NCBI GenBank assembly: GCA_030426085.1
Contig: JAUHYW010000053.1
Span: forward strand, 1-64,000
Source: a bacterium
Lineage (GTDB): Bacteria; Myxococcota_A; Bradymonadia; UBA7976; UBA1532
DNA length: 64,000 bases
Reading direction: 5' to 3'
Both the position numbers and the translations under genes were made by a program. Shown one piece after another: positions 28,238-45,048 of this stretch (its first letter is position 1; each line of letters begins with the position of its first letter). The notes under the pieces were generated by a model. The model was not told the DNA's origin and did not search any database. It was given only the letters and a program-made list of their open reading frames with translations.

Positions 28238-28366
28238 GAGACCTCGCCTGCCATTGTGTGAGCCACTGTGGCAGGCCTGGGGCCACGGGACAAGGCCGGC
28301 CGGACTTCGACGACGCAAATCCCGCGCAGCCTTGATACACTGCGACCTCTTGTGGAGATCCGCCCC

Positions 28367-29566
28367 GTGCGCAGACTCACCGCCCTCGTCATCGCCGGCC
28401 CGTCATCCGACATCGATCGGCTCATGGCCTCGATCGGGCGCTTCGGCATCCGCCCGTCCCGAACGCCGCAGTTGGATGTCGCGCGAGCCATCGAGGCGCA
28501 TTGCATCTTCGTCGACCGCGCGATGCTACCCGACGCCGAGTGGCCGACCGACGACCCGCGCCTCGACGCGGTGCCGCTGATCGACATCACGGCCGACGGC
28601 TCACCGCCCCCTGCGCGGTGCCTCATGCAGGTCACGCCTCCGTTCGAGCGATCGGCCGTACGCGAGGCGCTGCGCCGCGTGGAGCGCGCCGATCGCACGC
28701 CCCGCCGCAGCGCGCGGCCGACCGACGCCGACCCGATCGACGCGACCATCGCGCGCATCCAGCGAGGCGAGCTGGAGCTGCCCGAGATGCCGGATGTGGT
28801 CTTGAGGCTGCGGGAGGAGTTGGGGCGTCTCGAGGGGCCGAGGCGCCAGAAAGTCATAGAGTTCCTCGAATCAGACGAAGCGTTGGTGACTCGAGTGATC
28901 AAAGCCGCCAACCTGGTCGGCGCGGGCATCACTCGGGTCACCACACTGCCCGGGGCCGTCGGACGTCTGGGAAACGCCACCGTGTATCGGCTCGTCTTCA
29001 CCATCGAGATGCGGAAGCTCTTCTGGCTCCACGACCCGGTGCTGGATCGCATCTTCCGCAACCGGTGGGCGAGCCACCTCGCGAGCGGCCACCGCTGCCG
29101 GGCCGTGGCCCGTGCCTTGGGGTCACCGCATCAGCCCGAGCACGCCTTCCTCCTGGGGCTGATGCACCGGATCGGCGAGTCGTTCCTGCTGCGCGCCTTC
29201 GACGCCTACGTCCAGTCGAACTCATCAACGCCGCCAGAGCCCGATACGATCGAAGAGATCCTCTCCCGGTGGCAGCCCCACGTGGGCGCGGCGCTCGCTC
29301 GCCAGTGGTCTCTGGGGCCGGCTTTCGTCGCGGTGGCTCGCTATTCATCCACGGCCGACGGGGGCGAGAGCGAAGGGCTCCCTCCGGATGTGCTTCGGTG
29401 CGTTCGGCTGGTGCGATTGTCCGAGAGCATCGGCGATGCGCTGGATGACGCTGAGACTGATCGCATCGCATGCCACCCGGAGGTCGAACGGAACTTCGAA
29501 CTGCTCGGCTGTCCGCCAGCACAGCGAGCGGTCGTCCTGAGGGGCGCTCTCGACTCGGCCCGATGA
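28367..29566 (+). CDS. HDOD-domain signalling protein
   Basis: A 399-residue cytoplasmic protein. The first 120 residues (TALVIAGPSSDIDRLMASIG and on) look like a degenerate receiver-type fold without a clear phospho-acceptor. From about residue 128 there is an HDOD domain (LPEMPDVVLRLREELG, VIEFLESDEALVTRVIKAAN, GITRVTTLPGAVGRLG, HAFLLGLMHRIGESFLL), the HD-related regulatory fold that generally lacks the full metal site. HDOD proteins are known in stress, motility and second-messenger signalling. The GTG start at 28367 follows GGAG at 28353-28356; earlier in-frame starts have no site. It precedes the giant NTPase gene by 108 bases, in which a promoter is seen, so it may be a separate transcript or feed into the operon. 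Confidence 0.8.
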   Translation: MRRLTALVIAGPSSDIDRLMASIGRFGIRPSRTPQLDVARAIEAHCIFVDRAMLPDAEWPTDDPRLDAVPLIDITADGSPPPARCLMQVTPPFERSAVREALRRVERADRTPRRSARPTDADPIDATIARIQRGELELPEMPDVVLRLREELGRLEGPRRQKVIEFLESDEALVTRVIKAANLVGAGITRVTTLPGAVGRLGNATVYRLVFTIEMRKLFWLHDPVLDRIFRNRWASHLASGHRCRAVARALGSPHQPEHAFLLGLMHRIGESFLLRAFDAYVQSNSSTPPEPDTIEEILSRWQPHVGAALARQWSLGPAFVAVARYSSTADGGESEGLPPDVLRCVRLVRLSESIGDALDDAETDRIACHPEVERNFELLGCPPAQRAVVLRGALDSAR

Positions 29567-29610
29567 TGGCATACACGCTCGCCCGAGCGTCCCATGTGCT
29601 GGATTTGTTC

Positions 29611-29674: not shown

Positions 29675-32600
29675 ATGTACCGGCCACACCGCTTGCTGCA
29701 CCACGAGGCGCTGGCCTGTTGTCGGCGGGTGGCCGAATCCCAATCTCCAGCCATGGACAGCGTCATCGAGGCGTTGGGGATACTCGTCGATCATCGCCAT
29801 CGCCTCCGCGCGTCGGCCGATTCGGGGCCTGGGGCGGAGAGAGTGGTCTTCGACGATCTGATCCGGGTCGGCGGGTTCAAGATCCCCGATACGCTACCGG
29901 TCCGGCTGTGCAGCTTCCGGGCGCGGGATCCAGAGCGGACGCCGCTGTTCGTCGTCGCGACCGATCAGGGTGAGCTCCTCCTGGGCCGGATCGACGAGTT
30001 CCCCGAGGCCGAGGTGCGCGCGGGGGAAGGCATACCCGTTGGGTGGCAGCGGCGCCGGCTCGATGACTTCGACCCCCGACAAGACCAGATCGTCAGCATG
30101 GTGGTCAGCCGCTGGATGCGGCCGCTCGGCCGGCGGCTCGACCTGTGGGTGGTGGTCGGTCGGGGGCGGGGTGCCGAGAAGCCCGATACGCGCTGCTATC
30201 ACGGGCTGGTCGGGCTCGAGAGCGGCTCGCTACTGCTGCGGCCGGCCCTCGACGACAGCCCGGGCAGCGTCATCGCCAGCCGCATCCGCGCGGAGCCGAT
30301 GAGCCGGGACTTCTCCGGCTGGCTGAAGGAAGACCACTTCGTCCCCGCGCTGGGGCAGGATCCGTTCGCCGCAGGCGAGAGCGTGCACTTCGACGAGAGC
30401 GACGCGCCCGACGCCGACGGAGACGGGCTCGACACCACCGAGCGCCGGGCGGCCGGGGCAGTCCGGCGTGCGATCTTCGATCTGGCGGGGCACGACAGCG
30501 GCCAGTCGATCGAGATGGACCGCTGGGATCCCGGATCGACTGAGTCGCCGGCCGACGGCTCGGTGAACACGCCCCGCGTACGCATCACGACCACCGCCTG
30601 GAGCCAGCGGCGGGTAGCCCGGGGCGACGCCGTCGGGCAGCTGGAGATCATCGACGCCCGGACGGGTGACGGCCGGCTCCCGGCCCGGGTCTTCGACCTC
30701 GGCGCGCCGATCCGGGGGCTGGCCCTGGCCGAACGCGCCGACCGGGCCGAGCTGGCCGCCGGCACGATCGACTGCGCGGTGATGGGCTACACCTGTGTGG
30801 ACGGGCTCTGGGAGCCGACCTGGACCCAGCCCGTGCTCGACCAGCCGATGGCGCTGGCCTGGGCCCCGGGTGACGGCGAAAACGGCCTCCCCGGCGAGCT
30901 GCTTCTCGCGTTTCGAAACGGCCTGATCGAGCGGGCAGCCCGGGTCGACGATCAGCCGCTGTCCACGACCTGGCATCAACTGGTCGGGCACGTCGTCGGT
31001 CAACGGGGTCCGATGAGGCTGCTCGACCTTGTGGAGGCTTGGTTCGGGCCGGCCGAAGACCCGGGCGCCGCGCGCGACCAGGAGGCGCCGCGCCGGGCGC
31101 TGCTCCTGGCCTTCATCGAGCGGGTCTGCCTCGAGCCCGAGCCCTACCTGACCGACGCCGCCACCCGAAAGCGGATCGTCGGGTTGTTTCGCGCCGTTCC
31201 GACCATCAAGGTCCCATTGACGGCGACGCGGCACCTGCTGGACGCGGTGTCCCACCCCGGCGCAGAGCCGGACATGGTCGCGCTCCTGGCGACCATCTAC
31301 GACGCCTCACCGGCCGCGGTCCGCGAGGAGCTGGACGTCGACCTGCGGGCGCTGCGCGATCGGCAGCAGGGGCCGACGCACCTTGAGCAGTGGCGCCAGC
31401 TCCTGAAGCGGTGCGCTCGCTCACGGCAGGATCTGCTGCGTAGGGAGGATATCCCGCCCGAGCTGGAGGCGGCGCTGGCCATCGAGGCGTGGGCCAACCC
31501 CTACGTCCTGGTCGAGACGGTGCGGATCTCGGGCTATGGCGAGCCCTCCGGCCATCACGATCGGGTGCCGCCCACCGCGCTGGTCGCTGTGTCACCCCCC
31601 CCGTCGTCGAGCGACAAGACGCCGGGGGCCGACGCCCCACACTGGGTGGCCGTGGGCCGCCGCACGCAGGTCGGGGTGCACCGCTTTCATCTGGGTGACG
31701 GCCAGGACACAGCGGCGCACATGCAGTCGACGCCGGCGTGGCGCTGGCCGACCGACGGTCCCCGCGAGCAGGACATCCTGATCGACATGAGGTCCGCGGC
31801 GGTCTTCGGCGGCCGTCGATGCCTCGTCCTGGCGTGGCGCTCGGGCTGGATCGAGATCCTCGAGCCGGGCGGGGTCGGCGACGGGGCCGGCTGGGTCGAG
31901 CTCGCCAGGTGGCATGTGGGCGGGCGACCGGTGATGCTGGATGTGCTCGACGGGCACCTCTTCGTCGCGCAGCGAGACCGGCGCCGGACCGTGGTCGTCA
32001 CGCGCCGGCTGACGCGGGGGGCCAAGCCGCGCTCCTTCGAACTGGACCTGCCCCGGATCGCGGTGCTGCGCGTCGCCCGCCGCCATATCGGTGAGCGTCA
32101 CGCCGGCTTCTGGCTGTTCGCTTCGTCGACCGCCGGGCACCCCCCGCAGCTCGTGGCGCTGGATCGCGAGGCGTGCCCCGAGCCGCCGCCGAGCGATGAC
32201 CCGGTCCGGGGGCGAAGCCTGCGCCGGCTGCGCAGCCCGGTCATCACCGCCGCCTTCGACGACCCCCGAGCGCCCACGGTCCTGGCGCTGAGCACTCGGG
32301 ATGGCATGCTCTACGGGGAAGACATCGCGGCGTTCGGCCGTGAAGGAACTCTGCCGCCCGCGCCCCGCTGGATGTATCGCACGATCGGCACGCCCCAGTC
32401 ACTGGCCGGCGTAAGGAGGCCGGGCGAGGCGTCGGCCTTCCTCCTGGGCACCAACTATGGCCGCATGACCCTACTGGCGGCGGGCGATGGCCGCCGCCGA
32501 TGGGGCCGCCGCCTCTCGGCCGGCTTGCATCACCTAGCGGTCGACCCCAGCGCCCCGGGGGTGCGATTCGCGTTGCTCGCCATGGACGACGGCACGGTGA

Positions 32601-35600
32601 CGAGCCTCGAGAGCGGGCGCCCGTTCACACTGGACGCGCTGTGGGCGCGGATCGAGCATGCCGATACGACGTCGCTGACCCACCAGTTGCTGGACGACGC
32701 CGATCGCGAGAGCGTGCGCCTCTTGAAGCGTATCTTCATCGATGGCTCGGGGCAGCCATCGGCGGTCGTGGACGGCTTCGCGGCGGCCCGGCACCGGGAG
32801 ACCCGCGCCCGGATCATCCGCTGGCTCGTCGAGAGCGACCCCAGCGGGACGCACTCGCGAACCCGCCAGCGCCTGATCAGCAAGATGAACCATCGGGAGC
32901 TTCAACTCCTGCGGATGATGCTGCCCCCCGATGAGCATGGATGGGACGAGCTCGTGCGGCTCCGGCTGCTCGGCGACTACTCGAAGGTGCCCTCGGGCGA
33001 TGACGGCGTCGACGCCCAGATGGCGGCCATGGCCACGCTGATGGCCCACGGCGCGTCGCCGGAGAGCGCGGCGCAGCGACGGACGTGGAGGGAGCGCTTC
33101 TTCGAGGCGCTCCCTCCACCCGAGTATTGCGCCAACCGCTGGGTCGCCCAGGAGATTGCCCGTCGCATCCTGGACGCCGCGTTTCGGGCGACGCCCGATC
33201 CCAAGGGGCGGATCGCCCTGATCCTCGACGCTTTGATGAGGGTCCCGCTGCGGGTGCTCACCGACCTGCTCGCCCTCTTGCCGGCCGACAGCGACGTCCA
33301 CCGGCTGCTCACCCGCGTCGAGGCGATCTTCACCAGCATGCGCGGTGCGCCCAGCCGCCGGGGTCTGGAGGCGATCCACGCCCTCGCCGAGGACCTGGCG
33401 CCGCTACGCGCACGCGAGGGCGGCGAGGTGGCTCGGCTGGTGGGGTGGCTCGCCGAGTTCCACAGCCGGCTGAGCCGAGCCGGCCTGACCGATTGGGAGG
33501 AGGAGCGGACGCCCATCATCGACGCGCTACGGGTGATCGGCCAGGAAGCGCGGGCGACCGCCGAGCGCCCCGAGCCGCTGCACAAGCTGGTGCTGGGCCT
33601 GGATCAGATGCTCCCGGGGCAGCCCCCTCCGCCGGGCGACGCGCGGCTCGCCGAGCGGCGCCGGTGGCTCGACACGCTGCGGCGCTCACTGCCGACCCTC
33701 ACGGTCGTGCGCCCGGTCAGCGAGGCGACCGACTGGAGCGTCTTTACCGCCGGGCTGCTGCGCTGGACCCGGGCCCGGATCGGGCGGCTGGCCGACTGTG
33801 AAGAGCGGGCGCTCCGCGATCTGGTCCGGCCCCACCTCACACTGCGCCGGGGGGTGGTCAACCGGCTGGGCCGGGCCGAGCTGGAGATCGCGGTCGAGGG
33901 CGAGGGCAACCAGCAGCTCATCCACGCCGAGCTGACGATCGCCGCGGATGGCGCGGGCGGGCTGTCCGGCCGGGCCGAGGCGCTGCGGATCACCGAGACC
34001 TACGCGGCGTACCCCGCCCCGCGGAAGCGCTCGACCCATCGCTTCTCCGCCACCCTCCCGCTCGAGCGCCGCGAGGTGTCCATCATGACCACCCTGACCG
34101 GCAAGCTGAAGGACGCCCCGGAGCGAAGCTACACCCATCACCAGACTTGGCGCTTCGAGTTGAGTGATGACCGCGCCCGTATCGAGTCGGTGTCGCTGCC
34201 GCGTCACCTGCCGCGGACGTTCGCCGACCTCGTCGGACGCCTCACCGCGCCGGGCGCGCCAGCGGTCCAGCTGCTGGTGACCGATCCCGCCGTGTCGGGC
34301 CCCGGCGAGCGCGCGGGACGGGCAGCGTCGGACGATGCGGAGCAGAGCGCGCCCCGGGATGCGTTCGCCCGGGCGCTGGTGCGGGAGCACGACGCGTTCT
34401 GGCTCGACCTCGACCACCCGGAGGCGAAGGGCGGAGAGCGGCGAGACCGGTTCGATGTCCTCACCCTTACCCGGCCTGGTCGACTCAATGTCATCGAAGG
34501 TCATCGCTGGTTGACCCACCTGCTGGCCGCCGAGCGGCTGGATGTGGTCCGCGAATGGTTCGACGCGCTGGCTGGTGTCAGCCAGTCACTCGACGAGACC
34601 CGGCGGGTGGTCTGGATCGTCGCCGACGCCCACCTCCGCGAGCTGGCCGTCCTCGGCCTGCGACCCCCGCCCGGCCTCGCGGTGATCGAAGCCCATCGGC
34701 TCGACCCCCGATCGGCCCACGCCTCCGCTCTCAGCGCGCTCGCCCGCTCGGAGCAGACGCTCTGGCGGTCGAAGATCATCGAGGGGCGCCCGCAACCCTT
34801 GGACGCGCTCGGCTCCGATCTGCGGTTCTTCCTCGACTGGCGGCGCTGGGCCGAAGCCGGTGATGGGACGGATCGCTCCGAGCCGTCCCACGACTTCGAG
34901 CCGATACGGCGGCGGGCCATCGCCGACCTGGGGAGTCTGCCTCCCCTGGCCCGGCTGGTGGTCCAGGCGCTGGCTCAGAGCCGGCTCACCATCGAGCCGC
35001 CCTACAAGGGGTTGGAGCCTGCTCAACGGCTGGCGGGGTCCATCGAATGGATCCCCCAACGGGGTGCGTTCGAGCGTCGTGAACGGGAGCAGACCCTGAG
35101 CAAGGCCGACATCGCGCACTTCAAGCGGGCCAAGACCCGATCACCCGTGCGGATCTATGGCTTCGGCTCGGTTGGCACATTGGACGGCACGCTCTCCCGC
35201 CTGCCGGCACTGCTGGAGCGATGGCGCGTCGACACACCCTCCGAACTCGACTCGGCGATCCAGATCCTGATCGGTGGGGGGTTCGCCGATCGGGCCGGCG
35301 AGGTCACCCGGATGCGCAGCCCCTACCTCGAGATCATCCGCGACCTCTACCGGGCGCACCCCGACCTCCCGGCCGACGTCCATGATCAGCGGGTCTACAG
35401 CGCGCTGCACGGACCCGAGAGCAGCCTGCTCGAGTGCCTGCCCCTCAACTGGATCCGGCCTCTGCCGACCGAACTGCAAGTGGCCTTGATGCCCAACCTG
35501 TCCGATCCCCATCGGCAGGCGGTCCTCGATCTGGCGGGCGTCGCCCAATCCGCGGTCGTCTCGCCCACCCGGCTGGCCGCGATCTTCACGTCGATCTTCG

Positions 35601-37291
35601 ACCTCCCGGCCCGGCCGCTGGACCCCCCACCCGACGCACCCGACGCGCCCCTGCGGCGGCTGCACGACCTGCATGTCTTCGGACTCGATCAGGCCCAGCC
35701 CGATGGCGCCCACCGATTCTATGTCGGCTGGCTGATGGCGGGGTCGATCCTGACCGCCGGCTCGATCGGCCGCGCGGTCGAGCGCGTCGCCGGCCGCATT
35801 GGCCGGCGCAGCGGCCAGCGCCGGCACCCGCTGCTGATGATCCTCGGCCCGGGCGCCGAAGGCATGACCGACGACGGCGAGCGGCGCTTCGGCGTGCTGC
35901 GCCTCGCCGACCTCCGCCGGGCCTGCCTGCAAGGCGACCTGGGGCGCTCGCTGATGCGCCGGGCGCGGGCCCGGATGCGCCACACCTTCTTCTCGCCCTT
36001 CAAGGTAGCGGGGGCGCTCCCGCCCGGCTCGCCGCTCTTCGTCGGCCGCCGAGCCGAGTTCGAATTCATCCGGCGGACGCTGCACCAGCAGAGCAGCTTG
36101 ATCATCGGCAGCCGGCGCATCGGCAAGACGACGCTGCTCAACCGGGTGCGCCACTGGCTGGAGACCGAGGCGCCGGTGCGCGAGGGCCGCCGGCTGGTGC
36201 CGATCGCGATCGACTGCGCCGTCCTGGGCTCGGGCGCCGCGTTCGCCCAGTTCCTCGACTTCGAGACCCGCGAGCAGCCGGGACAGGTCACCTACGACGC
36301 CCAGGATCCCAAGGCGACCGTCCTGAGCCTGCTGGCCTACCACCGGGCGCGGGACGAGCTGCCGGTCCTCCTGCTCAACGAGGTCGACCGCCTGTACCAG
36401 GGCGACACCGACTTCATCCGCTTTCTGCGGGGCCTCGACGCCTCGGGGCGGGCCCGCTTCGTCCTGGTGGCCTACGCCAGCGCGCTCGACCTGCGCCGCG
36501 TCAAGGAGCCCCTGTTCAACATGACGGCCGGGCTGCACTACAACGGGCGGGCCACCTGCCTGACCGCCCTCTCCGAAGAGGCGGCCCGGGATCTGCTCGC
36601 GCTGCTCGAGGCCGAGCCGCTCAGCCTCGAGTGGCGCACGCCGGCCGAGAAGCGGCATGGCATCCAGCGGCTGCTCAACCGCAGCTATCGCGTGCCCTGG
36701 GCGCTCCAGATCCTGGCCGAGCGCCTCGTGCGGCGGCTCGAAGCCCAGGGCCGGGACGTGCTCACCGAGGATGACGTCGAGCACGTGCTCGACGGCGCCG
36801 GCCCTCTGGTCTGGAACGAGCTCCAGCAGATCGACTACAAGCACCTCGGGTTCCCCCAGGCCACCGACGCCCACGGCCCGGGCATGAAGCTGGTGCTGTA
36901 CGCGCTGGCCCGCGAGCGCTACTTCCTGGGCGAGGCGCCGGTCCGCCGGCGCAACCTCGACGGCGTCGAGCCGCTGAGCCTCGGATTCACCGTAGGCGAG
37001 GCTCGCACCATCGTGACCCGGGTCATCGACAAGGTGCTGACCAAGGAGGAGCGGATCCGGGTCAGGCGCTGGTTCGAGAGGCTCGATCTGGACGAGGCTT
37101 TGCGCTTGCTCACTTTGACCCTGGCGCTCGAGCCGGATCCCAACCAGGGCGATCGCTATGCCTTTCTGCTGCATGCCCTGCCGATCGAGCTGGAGCGCCA
37201 GTTCGGGCAGGAGGATCCGCTGCTCGACAGCCTGCTGATCGACACCGCGCTGGCGTTCCTCGAAAACCTCTCGGAGGATGTGAATGACTGA
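29675..37291 (+). CDS. Giant propeller-NTPase protein (2,538 aa), first gene of the RADAR-like operon
   Basis: An exceptionally large soluble protein. Residues about 75-440 and 635-980 contain runs of short beta strands with propeller-blade character (PLFVVATDQGELLLGRIDEF, CLVLAWRSGWIEILEPG, FALLAMDDGTVTSLESG). A mostly helical region (about 980-1385) and a beta-rich domain (about 1385-1510) follow. The C-terminal part is an ORC/STAND-like P-loop NTPase: FVGRRAEFEFIRRTL near 2123, Walker A GSRRIGKTT (G2145, K2151, T2152), Walker B VLLLNEVD (2231-2238), then a helical tail. The ATG at 29675 has AGGAAG six bases upstream. The next gene starts 8 bases before its stop. Propeller plus NTPase suggests a sensor or scaffold that activates the downstream RdrA/RdrB-like pair (inference). 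Similar propeller giants occur in MoxR-VWA ternary conflict systems. Confidence 0.8.
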   Translation: MYRPHRLLHHEALACCRRVAESQSPAMDSVIEALGILVDHRHRLRASADSGPGAERVVFDDLIRVGGFKIPDTLPVRLCSFRARDPERTPLFVVATDQGELLLGRIDEFPEAEVRAGEGIPVGWQRRRLDDFDPRQDQIVSMVVSRWMRPLGRRLDLWVVVGRGRGAEKPDTRCYHGLVGLESGSLLLRPALDDSPGSVIASRIRAEPMSRDFSGWLKEDHFVPALGQDPFAAGESVHFDESDAPDADGDGLDTTERRAAGAVRRAIFDLAGHDSGQSIEMDRWDPGSTESPADGSVNTPRVRITTTAWSQRRVARGDAVGQLEIIDARTGDGRLPARVFDLGAPIRGLALAERADRAELAAGTIDCAVMGYTCVDGLWEPTWTQPVLDQPMALAWAPGDGENGLPGELLLAFRNGLIERAARVDDQPLSTTWHQLVGHVVGQRGPMRLLDLVEAWFGPAEDPGAARDQEAPRRALLLAFIERVCLEPEPYLTDAATRKRIVGLFRAVPTIKVPLTATRHLLDAVSHPGAEPDMVALLATIYDASPAAVREELDVDLRALRDRQQGPTHLEQWRQLLKRCARSRQDLLRREDIPPELEAALAIEAWANPYVLVETVRISGYGEPSGHHDRVPPTALVAVSPPPSSSDKTPGADAPHWVAVGRRTQVGVHRFHLGDGQDTAAHMQSTPAWRWPTDGPREQDILIDMRSAAVFGGRRCLVLAWRSGWIEILEPGGVGDGAGWVELARWHVGGRPVMLDVLDGHLFVAQRDRRRTVVVTRRLTRGAKPRSFELDLPRIAVLRVARRHIGERHAGFWLFASSTAGHPPQLVALDREACPEPPPSDDPVRGRSLRRLRSPVITAAFDDPRAPTVLALSTRDGMLYGEDIAAFGREGTLPPAPRWMYRTIGTPQSLAGVRRPGEASAFLLGTNYGRMTLLAAGDGRRRWGRRLSAGLHHLAVDPSAPGVRFALLAMDDGTVTSLESGRPFTLDALWARIEHADTTSLTHQLLDDADRESVRLLKRIFIDGSGQPSAVVDGFAAARHRETRARIIRWLVESDPSGTHSRTRQRLISKMNHRELQLLRMMLPPDEHGWDELVRLRLLGDYSKVPSGDDGVDAQMAAMATLMAHGASPESAAQRRTWRERFFEALPPPEYCANRWVAQEIARRILDAAFRATPDPKGRIALILDALMRVPLRVLTDLLALLPADSDVHRLLTRVEAIFTSMRGAPSRRGLEAIHALAEDLAPLRAREGGEVARLVGWLAEFHSRLSRAGLTDWEEERTPIIDALRVIGQEARATAERPEPLHKLVLGLDQMLPGQPPPPGDARLAERRRWLDTLRRSLPTLTVVRPVSEATDWSVFTAGLLRWTRARIGRLADCEERALRDLVRPHLTLRRGVVNRLGRAELEIAVEGEGNQQLIHAELTIAADGAGGLSGRAEALRITETYAAYPAPRKRSTHRFSATLPLERREVSIMTTLTGKLKDAPERSYTHHQTWRFELSDDRARIESVSLPRHLPRTFADLVGRLTAPGAPAVQLLVTDPAVSGPGERAGRAASDDAEQSAPRDAFARALVREHDAFWLDLDHPEAKGGERRDRFDVLTLTRPGRLNVIEGHRWLTHLLAAERLDVVREWFDALAGVSQSLDETRRVVWIVADAHLRELAVLGLRPPPGLAVIEAHRLDPRSAHASALSALARSEQTLWRSKIIEGRPQPLDALGSDLRFFLDWRRWAEAGDGTDRSEPSHDFEPIRRRAIADLGSLPPLARLVVQALAQSRLTIEPPYKGLEPAQRLAGSIEWIPQRGAFERREREQTLSKADIAHFKRAKTRSPVRIYGFGSVGTLDGTLSRLPALLERWRVDTPSELDSAIQILIGGGFADRAGEVTRMRSPYLEIIRDLYRAHPDLPADVHDQRVYSALHGPESSLLECLPLNWIRPLPTELQVALMPNLSDPHRQAVLDLAGVAQSAVVSPTRLAAIFTSIFDLPARPLDPPPDAPDAPLRRLHDLHVFGLDQAQPDGAHRFYVGWLMAGSILTAGSIGRAVERVAGRIGRRSGQRRHPLLMILGPGAEGMTDDGERRFGVLRLADLRRACLQGDLGRSLMRRARARMRHTFFSPFKVAGALPPGSPLFVGRRAEFEFIRRTLHQQSSLIIGSRRIGKTTLLNRVRHWLETEAPVREGRRLVPIAIDCAVLGSGAAFAQFLDFETREQPGQVTYDAQDPKATVLSLLAYHRARDELPVLLLNEVDRLYQGDTDFIRFLRGLDASGRARFVLVAYASALDLRRVKEPLFNMTAGLHYNGRATCLTALSEEAARDLLALLEAEPLSLEWRTPAEKRHGIQRLLNRSYRVPWALQILAERLVRRLEAQGRDVLTEDDVEHVLDGAGPLVWNELQQIDYKHLGFPQATDAHGPGMKLVLYALARERYFLGEAPVRRRNLDGVEPLSLGFTVGEARTIVTRVIDKVLTKEERIRVRRWFERLDLDEALRLLTLTLALEPDPNQGDRYAFLLHALPIELERQFGQEDPLLDSLLIDTALAFLENLSEDVND

Positions 37292-38690
37292 TCGCGAGCC
37301 ACAGGCCACACACCGACTCTTCGGGAGCAAGCCACCGTTCATGGTGCGCCGGGTGACGAGTGACGAGAGCGCAGTCGGAGAGCACGGCTTCACGAAACGC
37401 TACCCGCTGGTCTACCTGGGTGGCAAGGGGCTGGCCGAGATCGATATGCCCGGCGAGTTCCGCACCATCGACACCGATCATGTCACCAGCCGGGACAACC
37501 TGTTGGTCCTCGGCGAGCGCGGCAGTGGCTTCTCCGATCTGCTGGCATGGTGGCGGTACTGGGCAGAAAAGCACGGGCAGCCGCTGCTCGAGGTGGATCT
37601 GGCGATGCCTCTCCCGCGGTGGTCTGTGGATTTCGACGCCGAGAGCCCGAAAGAGAAAGCCACGAAAGAGGCTGCGGCCGAACTGGGCTCGGCTCTGCGA
37701 CACCTCATCGTCACTCTCCGCAGCGAAGACGAGGCCGAGTTGAACCGGAGACTCTTCGAGTTCATCGAGGCTGCCGAGGAACTGGAAACCGACCGCCTGA
37801 CCCTCCTGTTCAATCATGTCGGCGCGCTCGGCCGCGCGCGCACCGAGCGCTTCGGCGACATGGTGGGCCTGCTCGAAGAGCGTGGCATCGGCATTCGCTT
37901 CGTCTTCTTCAGCCAGGCCGACGGCCCACTCAACAATCACCTGCTCGCGTCGGGGATGAGGCGGATCTGCAGCGTCTGGCGCATGGCTTCCATGCAGGCG
38001 GGGGAGATCATCCGGCTGGCTCGGGGTCGACCGCGCTACCCGGGCCCCGCCTGGCCCGGTGAGCGGGTGCAGAGCTGGATCGAGGAAAACTCACTCCCAC
38101 CGCCTCCTGAGGACGCTCAATGGCAAGACGGCGGGCAGTGGGACGGTTGGAAGGACGGCAGCCTCGCCCGGCTCGAGGCGGAGGTGCTGGACGTCTCCTT
38201 CGATCAGGAACGGCCGGACGCGACGAAGGCCGACTCTGATGCGGATCACGTACGGGACCGGGCCTTCGCCGAGGCCGTGAGAGCTTACACCGGCGGTCAG
38301 CCACTGCTCGTGCAAGCCTTGTTGGTCCATCTGAGACGTAGGCTGAAGCCGACGCCTGGGAGTTCGATGCCGGCGGCGAGTCGGATCCACGATGTGGCGC
38401 AGTTGCTCTATGCCTCGCCGCCACCGATCCACGTGCACTGGCAAAGGGAGCTGACTCACATCCTCGAGGAAGACAGCGGACTCCTGACCACTCTGCGGGG
38501 GTACTGCGCCGGTCAACGGCGCGACCGGCGGCCGTTCCCCTCCATCGAGCGGCCCCTGTATGTCGCCGGCTGGCTGGACACCGACGCGAAGGGGACCTGG
38601 GGCTTCCGATCCTTGTTTCACCGCGAGTTCGCCCGGCGGACCATCGCGCAGTACGATGAGGCGCCTATGGAGGGCCGAACCGATGACTGA
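37284..38690 (+). CDS. NTPase-like protein with a degenerate P-loop
   Basis: A 468-residue protein overlapping the giant gene by 8 bases and rdrA by 8 bases. Its start resembles an ATPase: LLVLGERGSGFSDLLAWW is placed like Walker A (G77, G80, G82) but position 83, where lysine is needed, is Phe. A strand RLTLLFNHVGALG at the Walker B place has no acidic pair. Near 335-346, TGGQPLLVQALL matches the TGGxPxLLQ motif common after the ATPase core of STAND/ORC-type proteins. So the fold is probably an inactive NTPase that keeps only its structural role, for example as a partner of the giant NTPase. I know of no described RADAR accessory gene like it. The function is otherwise unknown. Confidence 0.75.
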   Translation: MTDREPQATHRLFGSKPPFMVRRVTSDESAVGEHGFTKRYPLVYLGGKGLAEIDMPGEFRTIDTDHVTSRDNLLVLGERGSGFSDLLAWWRYWAEKHGQPLLEVDLAMPLPRWSVDFDAESPKEKATKEAAAELGSALRHLIVTLRSEDEAELNRRLFEFIEAAEELETDRLTLLFNHVGALGRARTERFGDMVGLLEERGIGIRFVFFSQADGPLNNHLLASGMRRICSVWRMASMQAGEIIRLARGRPRYPGPAWPGERVQSWIEENSLPPPPEDAQWQDGGQWDGWKDGSLARLEAEVLDVSFDQERPDATKADSDADHVRDRAFAEAVRAYTGGQPLLVQALLVHLRRRLKPTPGSSMPAASRIHDVAQLLYASPPPIHVHWQRELTHILEEDSGLLTTLRGYCAGQRRDRRPFPSIERPLYVAGWLDTDAKGTWGFRSLFHREFARRTIAQYDEAPMEGRTDD

Positions 38691-41283
38691 CGGGACCCTG
38701 GAGGACGCCTTTCGTCAGTGGTGCGAGGCTCAGGAGGTGCCCGAGTTCGCCCGGGGGATCGCTGGCGTGGCCCGGCAGTTGTCCACGCACGATGAGGCCC
38801 GCCGGAAGAGAACTCGGCGGCGCTCGAACAAGGTGGGGGCCCGCCGGGAGCCGCTGTGGCGTTCGAACTGCCACAGTGGCGGCGAGCAGCGGCTCGCCGG
38901 CGGAGACGATGACGACGAGCTGGTCCCGTTCGGCATGTCGAATGTCTTCGGCATCACCGGCCCCCGCGGCTCGGGCAAGTCGACGGTTGCCAGCCGGCTC
39001 TCGCGGTTTCTCGGAGACGCCGGCTTCGCGCTGTGCGGGCCCGATGACTGGCCACAGGCCGAATACGATGGCAGTTGGAATCGGCTGTATGTCGTGCGCA
39101 ACCCGCTCGACTGCACCGTGCCGCCCGAGGGGCTCGCCGAGCCCGGCGCGGCGGTGCTCGTGCACTTGTGTCGATCCCTCGTGCGGGATGGCTTGCTGGA
39201 GGAGGGCGATCTGGAGTCGTTTCGGCGGCTCATCGGTCGCTACAGTCAGGTGGATCAGGCCTACCGCGAGCTGAGCGCCGATCTGTCGGCGACACCGGAT
39301 GACTTCGGACGCTACGTGGCCGAAGGCATCGAGAGCCGGTTGGGCCTCGCGGATGATATCTACGAGGCGCTGCACGGCGTGGTGAGCCGCCTCGGCTGTG
39401 ATGCCATCCTCATCAAGCTGGACGACTTCGATCTGGTCTCGGGGGCTGATCTGCGGCGGTGGTATCGCTCCCTGCTCGACGAGCTGCGCCAGCCGCGGCT
39501 GCTCTTCGTGCTCACCGCCGACTACAACCGCCTGGAATATCTGGGCACTGATCAGTCCCGGCAAATCGATGACCAGACCGGCCGTCACTTGATCGGCAAA
39601 CTGCTGCCCGCGCGCAATCGACTGAGCTTGCGGGAGTTGGAGCACGCCGAGCGGCGCGCCTTCCGACCGCTGCCCTCGATCACTCCACCTGACGGGTCAC
39701 ACCTCGGTGCGATGGTCGAGGGGAGACTGGCGGGGCAGCCGCCGTATCGGACCGAACTCGCTCTGCTTCTACTGCCCAAGCGCCCGCGGGGCGCGGTTGA
39801 TCTGTATCTCAAGCTGGAGCCCTTGACGCGGCTGAAGTCGACGACAAAGCAAGGAACAGAGGACGATTCGCCCGGGGCTCCAAGCGATGATGCGCTCGCC
39901 CAGTTGATGGTGGACTTCGCCAATTGTCGCAACGAGAGCCTGCTCGCCCGGGCACTCCATGATCGGGAGCCGCACAGTTGGCTGACCGATCTGGATCCGC
40001 TCGTCGACAGTCCATCAGTCGAGATGTGGACCAGCTCGGTCGTTGCCGCCCGACAGCGGGTCAATCAACCACCACCCGCTGGCGAAGAGAGCCCTGCCCG
40101 ATTCTGGGAGCCGATCGAGCTGTTGAGGCCGCGGGCCCAGCCCCGAGAAGACGCCGGTCAGACGCTGTTCAAGGTGCGCTGGCTCGACGACCTCGCCCGG
40201 CCGCCCGACTGGCAGAACCCGCTGCGCCACGACGAGCAATACCGGGCGGCCCTGCGGGACGCCGCCAAAGACGATCAAGCCCGCTGGAGCGAGCTGCTGA
40301 TCGATCGGCTCGTGGCCGACGAGCCGATCCAGCGCACCCGCTTCCTCGAGCGCTGGCGCCCGCTCCGGCGGTGTCACGCCCGGGCCGGGTTCCGGGTCTC
40401 GCTCAGCCGCTCCGATCTGGCCGCCCTGCTCACGACGCCGCCCTACGCCCCCGTCGTCGACGACAAACCATCGACCCGGGTCAAGGTCGAGTCGCTTCTG
40501 CCCTGGATGCGGCTGGCGCCCGAGCCGACGACTGCGCAGGGTGCCGGCGAAGATCGCGCCCGCACGTCCGCCGAGGCCCGCGCCCGAAGGCGTCGACGCC
40601 TCGGGGGGCCCGATCGGGTCGAGGTCGACATCGGCTGGCCGTCGCTTTTCGGCGCGCTGCGCGGGGCGGCGCCGCCCATCCCGTACGACCTGCTCACCCG
40701 GGTCGGCACGTCCACCGATCGCCTCTTCGACGGCTCCGAGCAGCGACTGTCCGGGCGGCCCGACCCGTACGCGGCCGGCCGCCTCCTGCCGGGGGCGGTG
40801 TGGGCCATGGTGCTGCTCGCCGACGCCCTGCGCCGGGCGCCGTGGGCCGCCTTGTCGGCGGGCTGGCGGCTGTGGGGCCCGCTCACCTACGTCGGCCTGG
40901 CGGCGGCCTATATCCGCACGGCGCATGTCTTCGTGCTGAAACAGTGCGGGGTGACCGTGCGCTGGCAGAGGGACGGGGCGTCGAATGGCCCCAAGCCGCT
41001 CCGGCGGGTGCTGCTCGAGCAGCTCGAGCACAGCTCGGCCGAGCCGCTGACAGTGTGGTCCCGCAGTCGGCTGCACGAGGGGTTGGCGGGCTTCTTCGAC
41101 GGCGACGATGCCTCGAAGCGGGAGTGGACGCCGGCCAGCGGCGGGGACGCATCGCAGGACGCTGATCGGGAGCCTGTGTCGAAGGACGGCGATCTGAAGC
41201 CGGTGTACGAGGCGCTCGCAACTTTCGAGGCCCTGCCCGCCTGGAAGGAGCTCGGGCGGGTGCCCTGGACCGACCTCCTATGA
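38683..41283 (+). CDS. rdrA: RdrA-like P-loop ATPase of a RADAR defence system
   Basis: An 866-residue ATPase. The ATG at 38683 follows GGAGGG and sits inside the stop of the previous gene (ATGACTGA). A near-N-terminal Walker A GPRGSGKST (93-101) is followed by a Walker B-type LIKLDDFDLV (about 241-250, acidic pair D247-D248). The rest, about 600 residues, is mostly helical and of no clear family; length, one N-terminal P-loop and position directly before the deaminase gene fit RdrA (about 900 residues). RdrA forms a ring that binds the RdrB deaminase cage and is needed for phage protection (literature). The assignment to RdrA rests mainly on the partner and size, so it is less certain than RdrB. 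Confidence 0.75.
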   Translation: MTDGTLEDAFRQWCEAQEVPEFARGIAGVARQLSTHDEARRKRTRRRSNKVGARREPLWRSNCHSGGEQRLAGGDDDDELVPFGMSNVFGITGPRGSGKSTVASRLSRFLGDAGFALCGPDDWPQAEYDGSWNRLYVVRNPLDCTVPPEGLAEPGAAVLVHLCRSLVRDGLLEEGDLESFRRLIGRYSQVDQAYRELSADLSATPDDFGRYVAEGIESRLGLADDIYEALHGVVSRLGCDAILIKLDDFDLVSGADLRRWYRSLLDELRQPRLLFVLTADYNRLEYLGTDQSRQIDDQTGRHLIGKLLPARNRLSLRELEHAERRAFRPLPSITPPDGSHLGAMVEGRLAGQPPYRTELALLLLPKRPRGAVDLYLKLEPLTRLKSTTKQGTEDDSPGAPSDDALAQLMVDFANCRNESLLARALHDREPHSWLTDLDPLVDSPSVEMWTSSVVAARQRVNQPPPAGEESPARFWEPIELLRPRAQPREDAGQTLFKVRWLDDLARPPDWQNPLRHDEQYRAALRDAAKDDQARWSELLIDRLVADEPIQRTRFLERWRPLRRCHARAGFRVSLSRSDLAALLTTPPYAPVVDDKPSTRVKVESLLPWMRLAPEPTTAQGAGEDRARTSAEARARRRRRLGGPDRVEVDIGWPSLFGALRGAAPPIPYDLLTRVGTSTDRLFDGSEQRLSGRPDPYAAGRLLPGAVWAMVLLADALRRAPWAALSAGWRLWGPLTYVGLAAAYIRTAHVFVLKQCGVTVRWQRDGASNGPKPLRRVLLEQLEHSSAEPLTVWSRSRLHEGLAGFFDGDDASKREWTPASGGDASQDADREPVSKDGDLKPVYEALATFEALPAWKELGRVPWTDLL

Positions 41284-43697
41284 CCCCGGAGCGCTACAGC
41301 CGGCCGCTGCGCCTGGCGCTCGACTGGGTCGCCGTGGAGCTGCTCGACCCCCGCTGCGACGGCTCCGCGGCTGCGGCCGGGCTGGCCGATCTGCTCGTGC
41401 GGCACGGGGTGGCCGACCGGCGCCTCGCCGAGCGGGCGGTGGCAGGCCACGCCGCCCGCGAGGGGCGGGGCGAGGGACCGAGCGGGCTGGACGGGCTGGA
41501 GCACCTCGCCCGGGCGGTCTTCACCCTCGCCGACGGCCTGCCGGCTTTATTGCCGGGGCGGCTGGGTCGGGGGCTGATCCGGGCGATCGATCCCGACGGG
41601 CTGGCCTGTATGCACCCCGGGCTGCGGCTGCCGGCCGACGAGCCCTATGACTGGTCGACGGTGCCGCCCATCGCCGGGGTCGATCCGCTGCGCCAGATCT
41701 CGGGAGGCACGGTCGACACCCACGTGCACCTGGGCGGGATCCTGCCGCCGAGCTACTTCTGGATCGCGTTCTGCGGCGGGCAGTTGCCGTTGACCGCACT
41801 CGATGGGATCCAGAGCGTGAGGGCCCGCTACGCCGACCGCCGGGCGTGGATCGCGGCGGTCGGGGGCGCCGCCGCCGACCGGCTGGCGCTGGCGGGCGCG
41901 CTGCAAGAGCGGGGGCGGGTGTTCCGGGCGGCGCCGCCGGGCGACGACCCCCGGTGGGACGCCTTCCTCGCCCGGCTGGAGACGACCGCCGGCCCGACGC
42001 CCAGCCGGCGGCGGGTCCTGGAGCTGTCGTGGGAGCTGCGCCGGGGGCAGCGCCTGGAGCACGCGTTCGTCGATCCGCTGCGCGGCTGGCGCGAGGCCCA
42101 CTTCGCGGCCGGCGAGCGGCGGCTGCTCGTGGGCATCGCCCGCCACCTGCGCCGGGCGGTGTCCGATCGGCGCAGGTCGCGGGCCGAGCGGGCCCGGGTC
42201 GAGGGCGTGGCGGCGACCCTGCGCCGCTATCTGCGGGTGCGCAACGCCTTCCATCAGGTGCTGGTGCAGCTCCGGGGCGCGGGGGGGCTGGCCGAGTTCT
42301 TCGACTTCTTCCGGCGGCGGCGGGCGCTGACGCCGACCCCGCGCCAGAAGCGGCGTCGGCGGCGGCTGGTGGCGCGCTTCCAGCGCTCGCGTATGGCCGC
42401 GGCGGTGTCGTCCCAGCTCGTCGGGGCCTTCCCCGGCGACGCCGCGGGCGGGCCGACCCGCGACCTGGAGATCCGGACCCACCCCCCGACGGGGCGGCAC
42501 GCGCTGCGGGTCATGCGGGCCTGGATGCTGGGCATCGGGGACGCGGCTCGCGGTGATCCAGGCGCCGCGGCCGAGCGGCAGCGGGTCGGGCTCATCATGC
42601 ATGTGGGCCGCTCGGCGCGGGCCGATCTGGCCGTGAGCCGGGCCCGCCTCGGCCTGCGCTCGATGAAGGCGCTGCTCGCCGCGCACCCGGGCCTGCGGCG
42701 GGTGGTCGTGGGGGTCGATGTCACCGGGGACGAGCGCAACCAGCCGCCGCGGACCCTGGCGCCGGTCCTGGGGCTGGCCCGGGACAAGGTGCGGGCTCAC
42801 CGGGCCCGGTCGGGTCGACCGCGGCTGCGCATGGGCTGGACCTACCACGTGGGCGAAGACGCCTGGGATCTGCTCTCGGGCCTGCGCCATGTCGACGAGG
42901 TCGCCAGCCACGTGCTGCCCGCGGCCGGGGGGCGCCTGGGTCACGGTCTGGCGCTGTGTGATCCGCCGCGGCGGTTCTATGGCGCCCGGGACGGCTTCAC
43001 CGAGCCGACCCTCGGCGCCCACCTGCTGGATCTGGTGTGGGCCTGGGGGCGGCTGCGAGCGGCGCCCCACCCGGCGCACGGCGCGCTGGTCCGCTTCGTC
43101 GAGGAGCGGCTCGCCGGGCTGCTCGGTGGGCTCGATGGCGATCGGCTGACCGCATGCTGGCAGGCGATGGCTTTCGGGCGACGAGGCGATGAGCCAGACC
43201 GGAAGCTCGCATCCGAGGCCGAGCTGCTCGGCGCGCTGGCCGAGGACCCAGGTCTCGGCGAAGGGGTCGTGGTCGAGGGCCTGGCGCCCGAGTGGCTGCG
43301 CCTGATCGAGCGCTTGCAGGCGGTCTCGCGGGCCCGGCTGAGCCGGCGGCCGATCACCGTCGAGATCAACCCCACCTCGAACGTGATCATCGGGGCGTTC
43401 GGTGACTACCGCCACCTGCCCTACGACGCCCTGGTGGACGCCGAGCTGCCGGTCTCGATCAACACCGACGACCCGGGGCTCTTCCTCACCAACCTGAGCC
43501 ACGAGTACCTGCACCTGTACACGGCGCGCATGCTGGATCCGGACATGACCCACGATCGGGCGATGGCCTGGCTGAGGGCCCGGCTGCGGGACGGCCTGGA
43601 GAGCCGGTTCATCCGCCCCGATACGCCGACCCGGCGCGCGCTGATGGCCGACATGGCCCGGACGACGCCGCAGGTGCTGCTCTACGACCCGCCGTAG
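41280..43697 (+). CDS. rdrB: RdrB-like adenosine deaminase of a RADAR defence system
   Basis: An 805-residue protein with an adenosine-deaminase barrel. The zinc and catalytic residues are all present in order: HxH in VDTHVHLGG (H148, H150), HVGED (H523, E526), RLGHGLAL (H555), VEINPTSN, and SINTDDPG (D730, D731). About 370 residues separate HxH from the next His, far more than the roughly 200 in ordinary deaminases; this large insertion and total length match RdrB. RADAR RdrB deaminates adenosine in RNA and/or ATP to inosine forms during infection (literature). The start overlaps the rdrA stop by four bases (ATGA). It is the last gene of the operon. A housekeeping deaminase is unlikely because of size and context. 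Confidence 0.85.
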   Translation: MTPERYSRPLRLALDWVAVELLDPRCDGSAAAAGLADLLVRHGVADRRLAERAVAGHAAREGRGEGPSGLDGLEHLARAVFTLADGLPALLPGRLGRGLIRAIDPDGLACMHPGLRLPADEPYDWSTVPPIAGVDPLRQISGGTVDTHVHLGGILPPSYFWIAFCGGQLPLTALDGIQSVRARYADRRAWIAAVGGAAADRLALAGALQERGRVFRAAPPGDDPRWDAFLARLETTAGPTPSRRRVLELSWELRRGQRLEHAFVDPLRGWREAHFAAGERRLLVGIARHLRRAVSDRRRSRAERARVEGVAATLRRYLRVRNAFHQVLVQLRGAGGLAEFFDFFRRRRALTPTPRQKRRRRRLVARFQRSRMAAAVSSQLVGAFPGDAAGGPTRDLEIRTHPPTGRHALRVMRAWMLGIGDAARGDPGAAAERQRVGLIMHVGRSARADLAVSRARLGLRSMKALLAAHPGLRRVVVGVDVTGDERNQPPRTLAPVLGLARDKVRAHRARSGRPRLRMGWTYHVGEDAWDLLSGLRHVDEVASHVLPAAGGRLGHGLALCDPPRRFYGARDGFTEPTLGAHLLDLVWAWGRLRAAPHPAHGALVRFVEERLAGLLGGLDGDRLTACWQAMAFGRRGDEPDRKLASEAELLGALAEDPGLGEGVVVEGLAPEWLRLIERLQAVSRARLSRRPITVEINPTSNVIIGAFGDYRHLPYDALVDAELPVSINTDDPGLFLTNLSHEYLHLYTARMLDPDMTHDRAMAWLRARLRDGLESRFIRPDTPTRRALMADMARTTPQVLLYDPP

Positions 43698-43757
43698 AGC
43701 GCCGAGCCACGCACGCCGGCCCTCCGCGCCGCTTCTCATCGACCGGACGATTTGCTG

Positions 43758-43763
43758 TATGAT
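43758..43763 (+). promoter_or_regulatory. Candidate -10 box TATGAT
   Basis: TATGAT (43758-43763), directly preceded by CTG, 26 bases before the ATG at 43789. TTCTCA at 43733-43738 is a possible -35 at 19 bases, not strong. It marks the point where the defence operon ends and a new transcript begins. Confidence 0.4.
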
Positions 43764-43788
43764 GCGCGCCGACCGGGAGGTGACGGTG

Positions 43789-45048
43789 ATGAACCGACTG
43801 ATGGCGGTCGTCGCGCTGGGGGCGCTGTGGCCCGCCGCGGCGATCGGACAGACGTGCGGGCCGACCCAGCAGACGATCGGGTGGTCCCAGCCGAACAAGG
43901 TGCCCATCAGCGACGACAACGCCGTGCGCTGGCCCACCGACGGGTCTTTCCGGGTGGCGTACAGCGGCCCGTGGTGCCCCGACGACAGCCAGATCGAGCT
44001 GGTGAAGATCGCCGAGGACGGCAGCAACGGCGAGGTCATCCCGTCCCAGGTCCGCATCTACACCCCCTTCACCCTGGTCACCAACGCCCCCGAGGCTCTG
44101 ACGCTGCTCGAGATCGACCCCGAGCCCGAGCTGGAGGCGCGGGCCGACTACCGCATCCTGGTGCGGCCCCCCGACCCGGCGCTGGTCGCCAACGAGGAGT
44201 TCGTCATCGAGCTGCGCACCCAGGGCGGGCCGGCGGGCGCATTCCCCGACTTCGAGGGCGTCCGCAACGTCGAGCTCGACGGGCCGGTGTGCGGTGAGAC
44301 CGGCTCGCTGCAGCGGGCCGACAACAACAACCCCGCCTGCCCGGTGCCCAACCTGCTGCGGCTGCTGGTGTCGTTCCAGCCCATCGACCGGGCCGACGTG
44401 GCCTACATCATCTACCGGGTCAGCTCGACGCCGCTCGACGACGCCGGCGCGCCGATCGAGGACATGGCCGACAGCACGCCCATCCCGCTCGAGTTCCAGA
44501 ACGGCGCCCGCGACCTCTTCGGCACCGGCGTGCCGCTGCGTCAGGTGCGGGTCCCGGTGCCCTACCACCCGCTGCCCCGCGTCGACTGCTTCAGCGTGCG
44601 CGCGCTCGACGAGTACGGCCGCGAGCGGCGGGGGTCCGACGCCGAGGCGTGCATCACCCTGAACCGCATCCACGGCGAGGACTGCCCGCTGGACCAGTGC
44701 ACCGAGATGCAGTGCATGGGCATCCCCGAGCCCAACCCGTTCGAGGCCGGGGCGCCGGTGCCGGGGCAGATGTGCGACAACATCGGGCTCGGCGGGGGCG
44801 ACCCCGACCGGCCCATCCCCCCGGTGGGCGAGGAGCCCGACGCCATGGTGCCCGACGCCGGCCTGCCCGACGGCGGGCCCGACGGCGACGGCGGGGTCGG
44901 CGCCGAAGAGGGCGGCAGCGGCGGCGGCGGTGGCGGCGCGGGCCCCCTCGGCTGCCGGGTCGACCTCGGCCTCGGCGGCTCGGCCCCCTGGCCGCTCCTG
45001 CTCCTGCTCCTGCCCGCCCTGCGCCGCCGGCGCCATCCCGAGGGCTGA
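43789..45048 (+). CDS. Secreted protein with a MYXO-CTERM-like sorting tail
   Basis: A 419-residue exported protein. The ATG at 43789 is preceded by GGGAGGTGA and opens a signal peptide (MNRLMAVVALGALWPAAAIG). The mature part is beta-rich with Fn3-like spacing and paired cysteines, e.g. VAYIIYRVSSTPLDD and PRVDCFSVRALDEYGRE. After a Gly/Asp/Pro linker, the last 30 residues read as a sorting tag: a GC pair, a hydrophobic stretch (WPLLLLLLPAL) and a terminal RRRR cluster. This is the layout of MYXO-CTERM-type signals, which mark surface-anchored proteins in Myxococcota. I do not know the function. It lies 91 bases after rdrB and is probably not part of that operon. Confidence 0.8.
   Translation: MNRLMAVVALGALWPAAAIGQTCGPTQQTIGWSQPNKVPISDDNAVRWPTDGSFRVAYSGPWCPDDSQIELVKIAEDGSNGEVIPSQVRIYTPFTLVTNAPEALTLLEIDPEPELEARADYRILVRPPDPALVANEEFVIELRTQGGPAGAFPDFEGVRNVELDGPVCGETGSLQRADNNNPACPVPNLLRLLVSFQPIDRADVAYIIYRVSSTPLDDAGAPIEDMADSTPIPLEFQNGARDLFGTGVPLRQVRVPVPYHPLPRVDCFSVRALDEYGRERRGSDAEACITLNRIHGEDCPLDQCTEMQCMGIPEPNPFEAGAPVPGQMCDNIGLGGGDPDRPIPPVGEEPDAMVPDAGLPDGGPDGDGGVGAEEGGSGGGGGGAGPLGCRVDLGLGGSAPWPLLLLLLPALRRRRHPEG

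Follow-up and report, generated by a model that had tools for sequence, protein, structure and literature searches.

The window, the whole 64,000-nucleotide stretch of DNA that was analysed, is part of a 10.1 Mb Myxococcota genome and carries four intact, co-directional open reading frames on the forward strand (Table 1). These specify, in order, a giant NTPase of the sensor type, a protein with a broken P-loop (here termed the pseudo-NTPase), an RdrA-like ATPase and an RdrB-like deaminase, the last two corresponding to the components of RADAR, an anti-phage system that acts by poisoning the ATP pool of the cell. Consecutive genes overlap by 8, 8 and 4 bases, in agreement with the preliminary description, which had reported overlaps of 4 to 8 bases. 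The third-position GC content of the four genes is of the coding type at 0.80-0.93, while most neighbouring genes are higher at about 0.92-0.98. For the giant, an alternative start at 29594 would give a protein of 2,565 aa; matches with relatives begin from 29675, and the latter start is in better accord with them. The RdrA-like gene was listed as an open reading frame of 907 aa from an earlier start within the preceding gene, whereas from 38683 its product is 866 aa.

Table 1. Positions of genes, motifs and related loci (window coordinates unless a locus is named).
Feature	Position	Strand	Remarks
Giant sensor-type NTPase	29675..37291	+	2,538 aa; full-length relatives in G038, G092, L161 and L220
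Propeller-like beta-rich part of giant	29858..32608	+	model residues 62-423 and 709-978, helical stretch between
C-terminal STAND/AAA NTPase domain of giant	35990..36949	+	Pfam AAA_22, E 1.7e-9
Giant Walker A GSRRIGKT	36125-36127 (Lys)	+	intact
Giant Walker B LLLNEVD	36377-36382	+	Asn for Asp, from alignment
Pseudo-NTPase (putative dead STAND-like protein)	37284..38690	+	468 aa
Broken P-loop GERGSGFS of pseudo-NTPase	37512..37535	+	Phe replaces Lys; Walker A Lys missing in 5/5 copies
RdrA-like AAA+ ATPase	38683..41283	+	866 aa
RdrA-like Walker A GPRGSGKS	38959-38982	+	intact
RdrA-like Walker B DD	39421-39426	+	intact
RdrB-like adenosine deaminase	41280..43697	+	805 aa
RdrB metal/catalytic motif HVH	41721-41729	+	conserved
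RdrB metal/catalytic motif HVGED	42846-42860	+	conserved
RdrB metal/catalytic motif TDDPG, DD	43467-43472	+	conserved
Gene junctions (stop/start)	37291/37284; 38690/38683; 41283/41280	+
Right edge of cassette	43698..43754	.	co-linearity with a same-genus genome begins at 43755, directly after rdrB
Nearest non-RADAR giant (G180 locus)	L148:758-11722		2,593 aa; 973-aa partner with dead STAND-like domain, kinase-like region and TM helices
Dead STAND-effector partners beside giants	L149; L202; L155; L156; L152		SIR2; trypsin; PNP; protein kinase; metallophosphoesterase

An HDOD gene lying upstream (28268-29566) was considered as a fifth member of the operon and rejected, as it does not precede the other giants and paralogous genes occur at further sites within the genus. 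Relatives of the giant possess an LxPGMxLAxxV-type stretch 5' of the NTPase (ELRPGMILADDVMT in L148), which is eroded in the window copy at approximately 34980-35060; this stretch is reminiscent of a motif of HD-GYP/HDOD proteins.

The RdrA-like and RdrB-like proteins

The RdrB-like protein was matched by the PADLOC RdrB model (1.4e-18) and by the NCBIfam RdrB model (1.4e-29), the latter at 103 bits and thus far below the curated equivalog cut-off of 800, so that the window RdrB would represent a distant branch as opposed to a curated NCBIfam equivalog. A profile built from four relatives had as its top PDB match the solved RADAR RdrB (8fnw/8fnv, E 3e-31), and the deaminase-site motifs HxH, HxGED, GH and DD proved invariant, the metal-binding HxH, HxGE and DD motifs being those of an RdrB-type adenosine deaminase. 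Directly upstream of rdrB lies an RdrA-type AAA+ ATPase with both Walker motifs intact. The window sequence searched singly against PADLOC RdrA gave no match, whereas the family profile did match: its top PDB chains were those of RADAR RdrA (8fnt/8hr7, E 8e-5), and in dozens of two-gene RADAR loci it also matched the gene immediately 5' of rdrB, with E values as low as 1e-10. The assignment of the last two genes as RdrA-like and RdrB-like in the preliminary description is thereby borne out.

The two proteins nevertheless differ from those of two-gene RADARs. From Walker A to the C-terminus the RdrA proteins of the five four-gene copies, which are all that are known, span 629-774 residues as compared to 763-1050 in 35 two-gene RADARs, with medians of 647 and 883 residues for this C-terminal part (p 2e-4, a value that ignores shared ancestry and includes no kinship correction). 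In the RdrB tree four of the five four-gene copies form one branch apart from the two-gene RADARs, with 100% SH-aLRT when the long-branched orphan L052, together with L046 and L114, is left out; with these three included, the orphan L052 falls beside the window RdrB. L052 (9800-12886) derives from an Acidobacteriota MAG and is an RdrB-like deaminase fused at its C-terminus to a PNP_UDP_1 domain, with no rdrA nearby, and it is possible that it represents a single-protein ATP-destroying effector.

The giant and the pseudo-NTPase

The N-terminal 1,000 residues of the giant, when compared as a family profile, matched the designed propellers Cake8-10 (Cake10, E 2.9e-6) and PQQ/BamB propellers, and relatives of the giant matched PQQ_2. 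An AlphaFold model of this part is all-beta or beta-rich and arranged in two blocks, albeit at low confidence (pLDDT 42), with Foldseek matches mostly to WD40 propellers; for the pseudo-NTPase the AlphaFold model was likewise poor (pLDDT 40), the alignments at hand having 4-5 rows, and the folds of both are uncertain. The N-terminal part of the giant is accordingly described as propeller-like, on the strength of profile comparisons and weak models. The propeller-NTPase of 2,538 aa announced in the preliminary description thus stands as an intact gene with a C-terminal AAA_22 domain, its propeller part resting on these profiles and the low-confidence model. A Pfam scan of the giant returned no match to an nSTAND family at E values up to 1, from a library that possibly holds no nSTAND2 model. 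Among the RADAR-linked giants Walker A is intact in all five and Walker B reads NE in all five, whereas the non-RADAR relative L148 has DE, as has the giant L152. An intact Walker A combined with the exchange of Asp for Asn in Walker B would be consistent with a long-lived ATP-bound state, although the Asn may still allow hydrolysis.

The pseudo-NTPase, reported earlier as a 468-aa protein with a broken P-loop, does indeed have Phe in place of the Walker A Lys; across the five copies this position is occupied by F, L, E, G and L. No family match and no recognisable extra domain was detected with Pfam, and a sequence search of the PDB with its profile yielded nothing significant. Its profile did, however, match the NTPase domain of the neighbouring giant (E 3.2e-4; 198 columns were aligned and the two P-loops coincide), as compared to 0.1 for RdrA, where the P-loop only was aligned, and 0.21 for RdrB. 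Owing to this match, set against the RdrA and RdrB controls, and to the lost Lys, the most suitable reading of the pseudo-NTPase is that of an inactivated homologue of the NTPase domain of the giant, its fold being putative.

Occurrence and boundaries of the four-gene cassette

The preliminary description would have been refuted had no other genome kept the two upstream genes beside rdrA and rdrB; four further genomes do keep them there, and the same order is now seen in five genomes of two phyla, namely three Myxococcota (the window included) and two gammaproteobacteria, which is more than a chance arrangement. Searches of the phylum that began from RdrB and continued from the giant identified it in G038, which belongs to the family of the window (contig L054), and in G092 of another family; a genome scan added a MAG of the Lysobacterales (L053/L161), while a search with the pseudo-NTPase added L220, a Lysobacterales genome that is complete as one 6-Mb contig and in which the giant/pseudo-NTPase and rdrA/rdrB overlaps are 4 bases each. 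In L053/L161 the giant and the pseudo-NTPase seem to be fused, a reading that was rejected, as the joint reading frame crosses a run of 103 N and the two are separate, overlapping genes in L220. Identity to the window proteins is 24-33% in the three other genomes measured, and 24-55% across the four-gene copies. Neither a giant nor a pseudo-NTPase match was obtained in approximately 90 other RADAR loci, several of which are short, and viral contigs and plasmids that were searched yielded no relatives. In the open-access literature, subscription journals such as that of the original RADAR report lying outside the search, no description of a four-gene RADAR was found. Judged by these comparisons of sequence and gene order, the operon is a genuine variant of RADAR in which four genes are conserved together.

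It might be argued that the giant and the dead NTPase constitute a separate two-gene defence system which acts alone and merely adjoins RADAR, in keeping with the clustering of defence genes in islands, with the existence of distant giant relatives in the absence of RADAR, and with the situation in G038, where a two-gene RADAR and the four-gene one lie side by side. We regard this as improbable, as five genomes from two phyla retain both the order and the overlaps and the RdrB proteins fall on one branch. In addition, the loci L038 and L161 form the closest pair for all four proteins (44, 39, 53 and 55% identity), and such a joint rise of identities is expected if all four are inherited or transferred together. 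The pseudo-NTPase, which stands alone, lacks an effector part, and the only full-length giant of the RADAR-linked type found without RADAR is that of L148, which has its own partner. As regards the loci with more than one RADAR, the additional system of G038 (L162:100-6638), situated just upstream of the four-gene operon, comprises an RdrB and a 1,304-aa RdrA-like protein with a weak match, and the genome of the window itself has an ordinary two-gene RADAR elsewhere (L005:11880-17654, contig C54; PADLOC RdrA 7e-24, RdrB 1e-48).

A same-genus genome aligns to the window at 82% identity from 58 bases past the rdrB stop codon onwards, with no match upstream of this point, the four-gene cassette being absent at the corresponding place. 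As the match begins only there, the cassette has a sharp right edge and must be either a recent arrival or variably present; a left edge was not found. A gene beyond the right edge (43759-45048), of which an 80% identical copy is present in the same-genus genome, adjoins hisS and encodes a secreted protein with a C-terminal Cys, a hydrophobic stretch and an Arg run, similar to a MYXO-CTERM sorting signal. Many Myxococcota are social and developmentally complex, and an alternative would be that the operon is not immune in function and instead employs its ATP deaminase as a regulator of nucleotide metabolism or development. This we consider very improbable in view of the absence of the cassette from the matching place in the same-genus genome, its extreme divergence, its nearest solved relatives, which are RADAR proteins, and its sporadic distribution, full-length giants of the RADAR-linked kind being present in just 3 of the 379 sampled Myxococcota genomes, while 2 of 250 genomes of another order, the Lysobacterales, have the pseudo-NTPase.

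Related systems and proposed mode of action

The operon resembles known RADARs in that an RdrA-like AAA+ ATPase adjoins an RdrB-like deaminase, active-site motifs are retained and RADAR proteins are the top PDB matches, while it is set apart by its distinct RdrB branch, its shortened RdrA C-terminal part and its sub-cut-off NCBIfam score. Two RADAR subtypes have accessory genes, rdrABC (Csx27) and rdrABCD (SLATT); in contrast to these small membrane proteins, and as the preliminary description had already contended, the extra proteins of the window comprise 2,538 and 468 aa, and no Csx27-like or SLATT family was matched in either. The same description had also raised the possibility of a hybrid between RADAR and the MoxR-vWA ternary conflict systems, some components of which are propellers and inactive NTPases (Kaur et al. 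2020, PMC7159879) and with which the operon has in common the theme of a propeller, an inactive NTPase and an NTP-dependent switch. This idea fails since the operon has neither a MoxR ATPase nor a vWA protein, the pair by which such systems are defined, and since no MoxR, vWA, VMAP or iSTAND Pfam family was matched in the four window proteins or in the relatives scanned; we give it hardly any credence. A closer precedent, as far as the domains can be compared, would be the two-gene systems in which an active STAND protein is combined with an inactive STAND protein that has eroded NTP-binding motifs and carries GT4 or HEPN effectors (Burroughs and Aravind 2021, PMC8195603). As in these systems (nSTAND2, a family with a conserved arginine finger), the window has adjacent active and dead NTPases with matching domains; unlike them, its inactive partner stands alone, its effector is a separate two-gene RADAR and its active partner is a propeller giant, of 2,270-2,540 aa among the copies.

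Other giants of the Myxococcota, with that of G180/L148 as the nearest, have a C-terminal NTPase of the same family as the RADAR-linked giants, and several of them adjoin a gene that joins a STAND-like domain without P-loop Lys to an enzyme. In contrast to RADAR, the effectors of these loci are SIR2, trypsin, PNP, kinase, phosphoesterase or a TM protein, and are mostly fused to the dead domain (Table 1). The profile of this dead STAND domain matched the NTPase of the giants at 9e-5 and, more weakly, the pseudo-NTPase at 3.6e-4, with controls at 0.2-0.9; the kinship between the pseudo-NTPase and the dead STAND domains of the other systems is weak, at an hhalign probability of 37-39%. No dead-STAND partner was seen for L150, L153, L154 and other giants, and the giants L204 and L208 adjoin HEPN_Swt1-like proteins. 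The giants and their dead STAND-effector neighbours look like a family of sensor/adaptor-effector systems. Extending this to the operon described here, we tentatively propose, at somewhat less than even confidence, that one type of giant STAND sensor together with a dead-STAND adaptor plugs into diverse effectors, the RADAR mega-complex among them, so that an external sensor would switch RADAR and RdrA would have lost its own sensing lobe.

As to the operon itself, it seems fairly probable from the comparisons above that in four-gene RADAR an external sensing module, consisting of a STAND and an inactive STAND protein, replaces or supplements the trigger that RdrA itself provides. RADAR is characterised by an RdrA heptamer that docks on an RdrB dodecamer and by deamination of ATP to ITP upon infection. 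In other RADARs RdrA activates RdrB, which converts ATP and dATP to ITP and dITP, and the C-terminal domain of RdrA has been proposed as the sensor by the authors of the structure, who state the trigger to be unknown (PMC9994260). The shortening of RdrA, the sensor-like nature of the giant and the presence of a dead-NTPase adaptor suggest that sensing has moved from RdrA to the giant. The propeller part of the giant would bind a sign of infection, and this binding would switch its C-terminal STAND-type NTPase, which would hold nucleotide and probably hydrolyse it poorly. The ATP-bound giant would then assemble with the pseudo-NTPase as adaptor, a role in which the dead NTPase of the module relatives is fused to the effector, and the adaptor would engage RdrA, whose C-terminal part is observed to be shortened. 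RdrA would in turn activate RdrB, the resulting conversion of ATP and dATP to ITP and dITP bringing phage growth to a stop; the chemistry of this last step is that of other RADARs (PMC9994260), active-site conservation being the ground on which it is extended to the window operon.

The main rival to such a trigger is a restraining role of the added gene pair, in which the giant and the dead NTPase would keep RdrA and RdrB in an inactive assembly in the manner of an antitoxin or chaperone and release them when the cell is disturbed. Dead NTPases frequently serve as structural subunits, the tight gene overlaps would favour a fixed stoichiometry, and as RADARs of two genes function in the absence of a giant and a dead NTPase, the pair may hold the effector back instead of firing it. 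A guard would also be useful, given the toxicity seen in E. coli when RdrB is overproduced by itself (PMC9994260). Restraint is nonetheless unlikely in our judgement, as the two-gene RADAR in the genome of the window, and those in hundreds of others, need no guard, and as the association of propeller-NTPase giants with many other effectors is better suited to a sensor.

What fires ordinary RADAR is an open question (PMC9994260), and in the four-gene variant the additional pair of proteins probably tells RADAR when to fire. If the sensing step now resides in a protein of its own, one that is large and can be dissected, deletion or swap of that protein would make the trigger of RADAR directly testable. 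Were this reading true, a 10-MDa deaminase machine could slot into a general sensor-adaptor scheme just as simple enzymes do.
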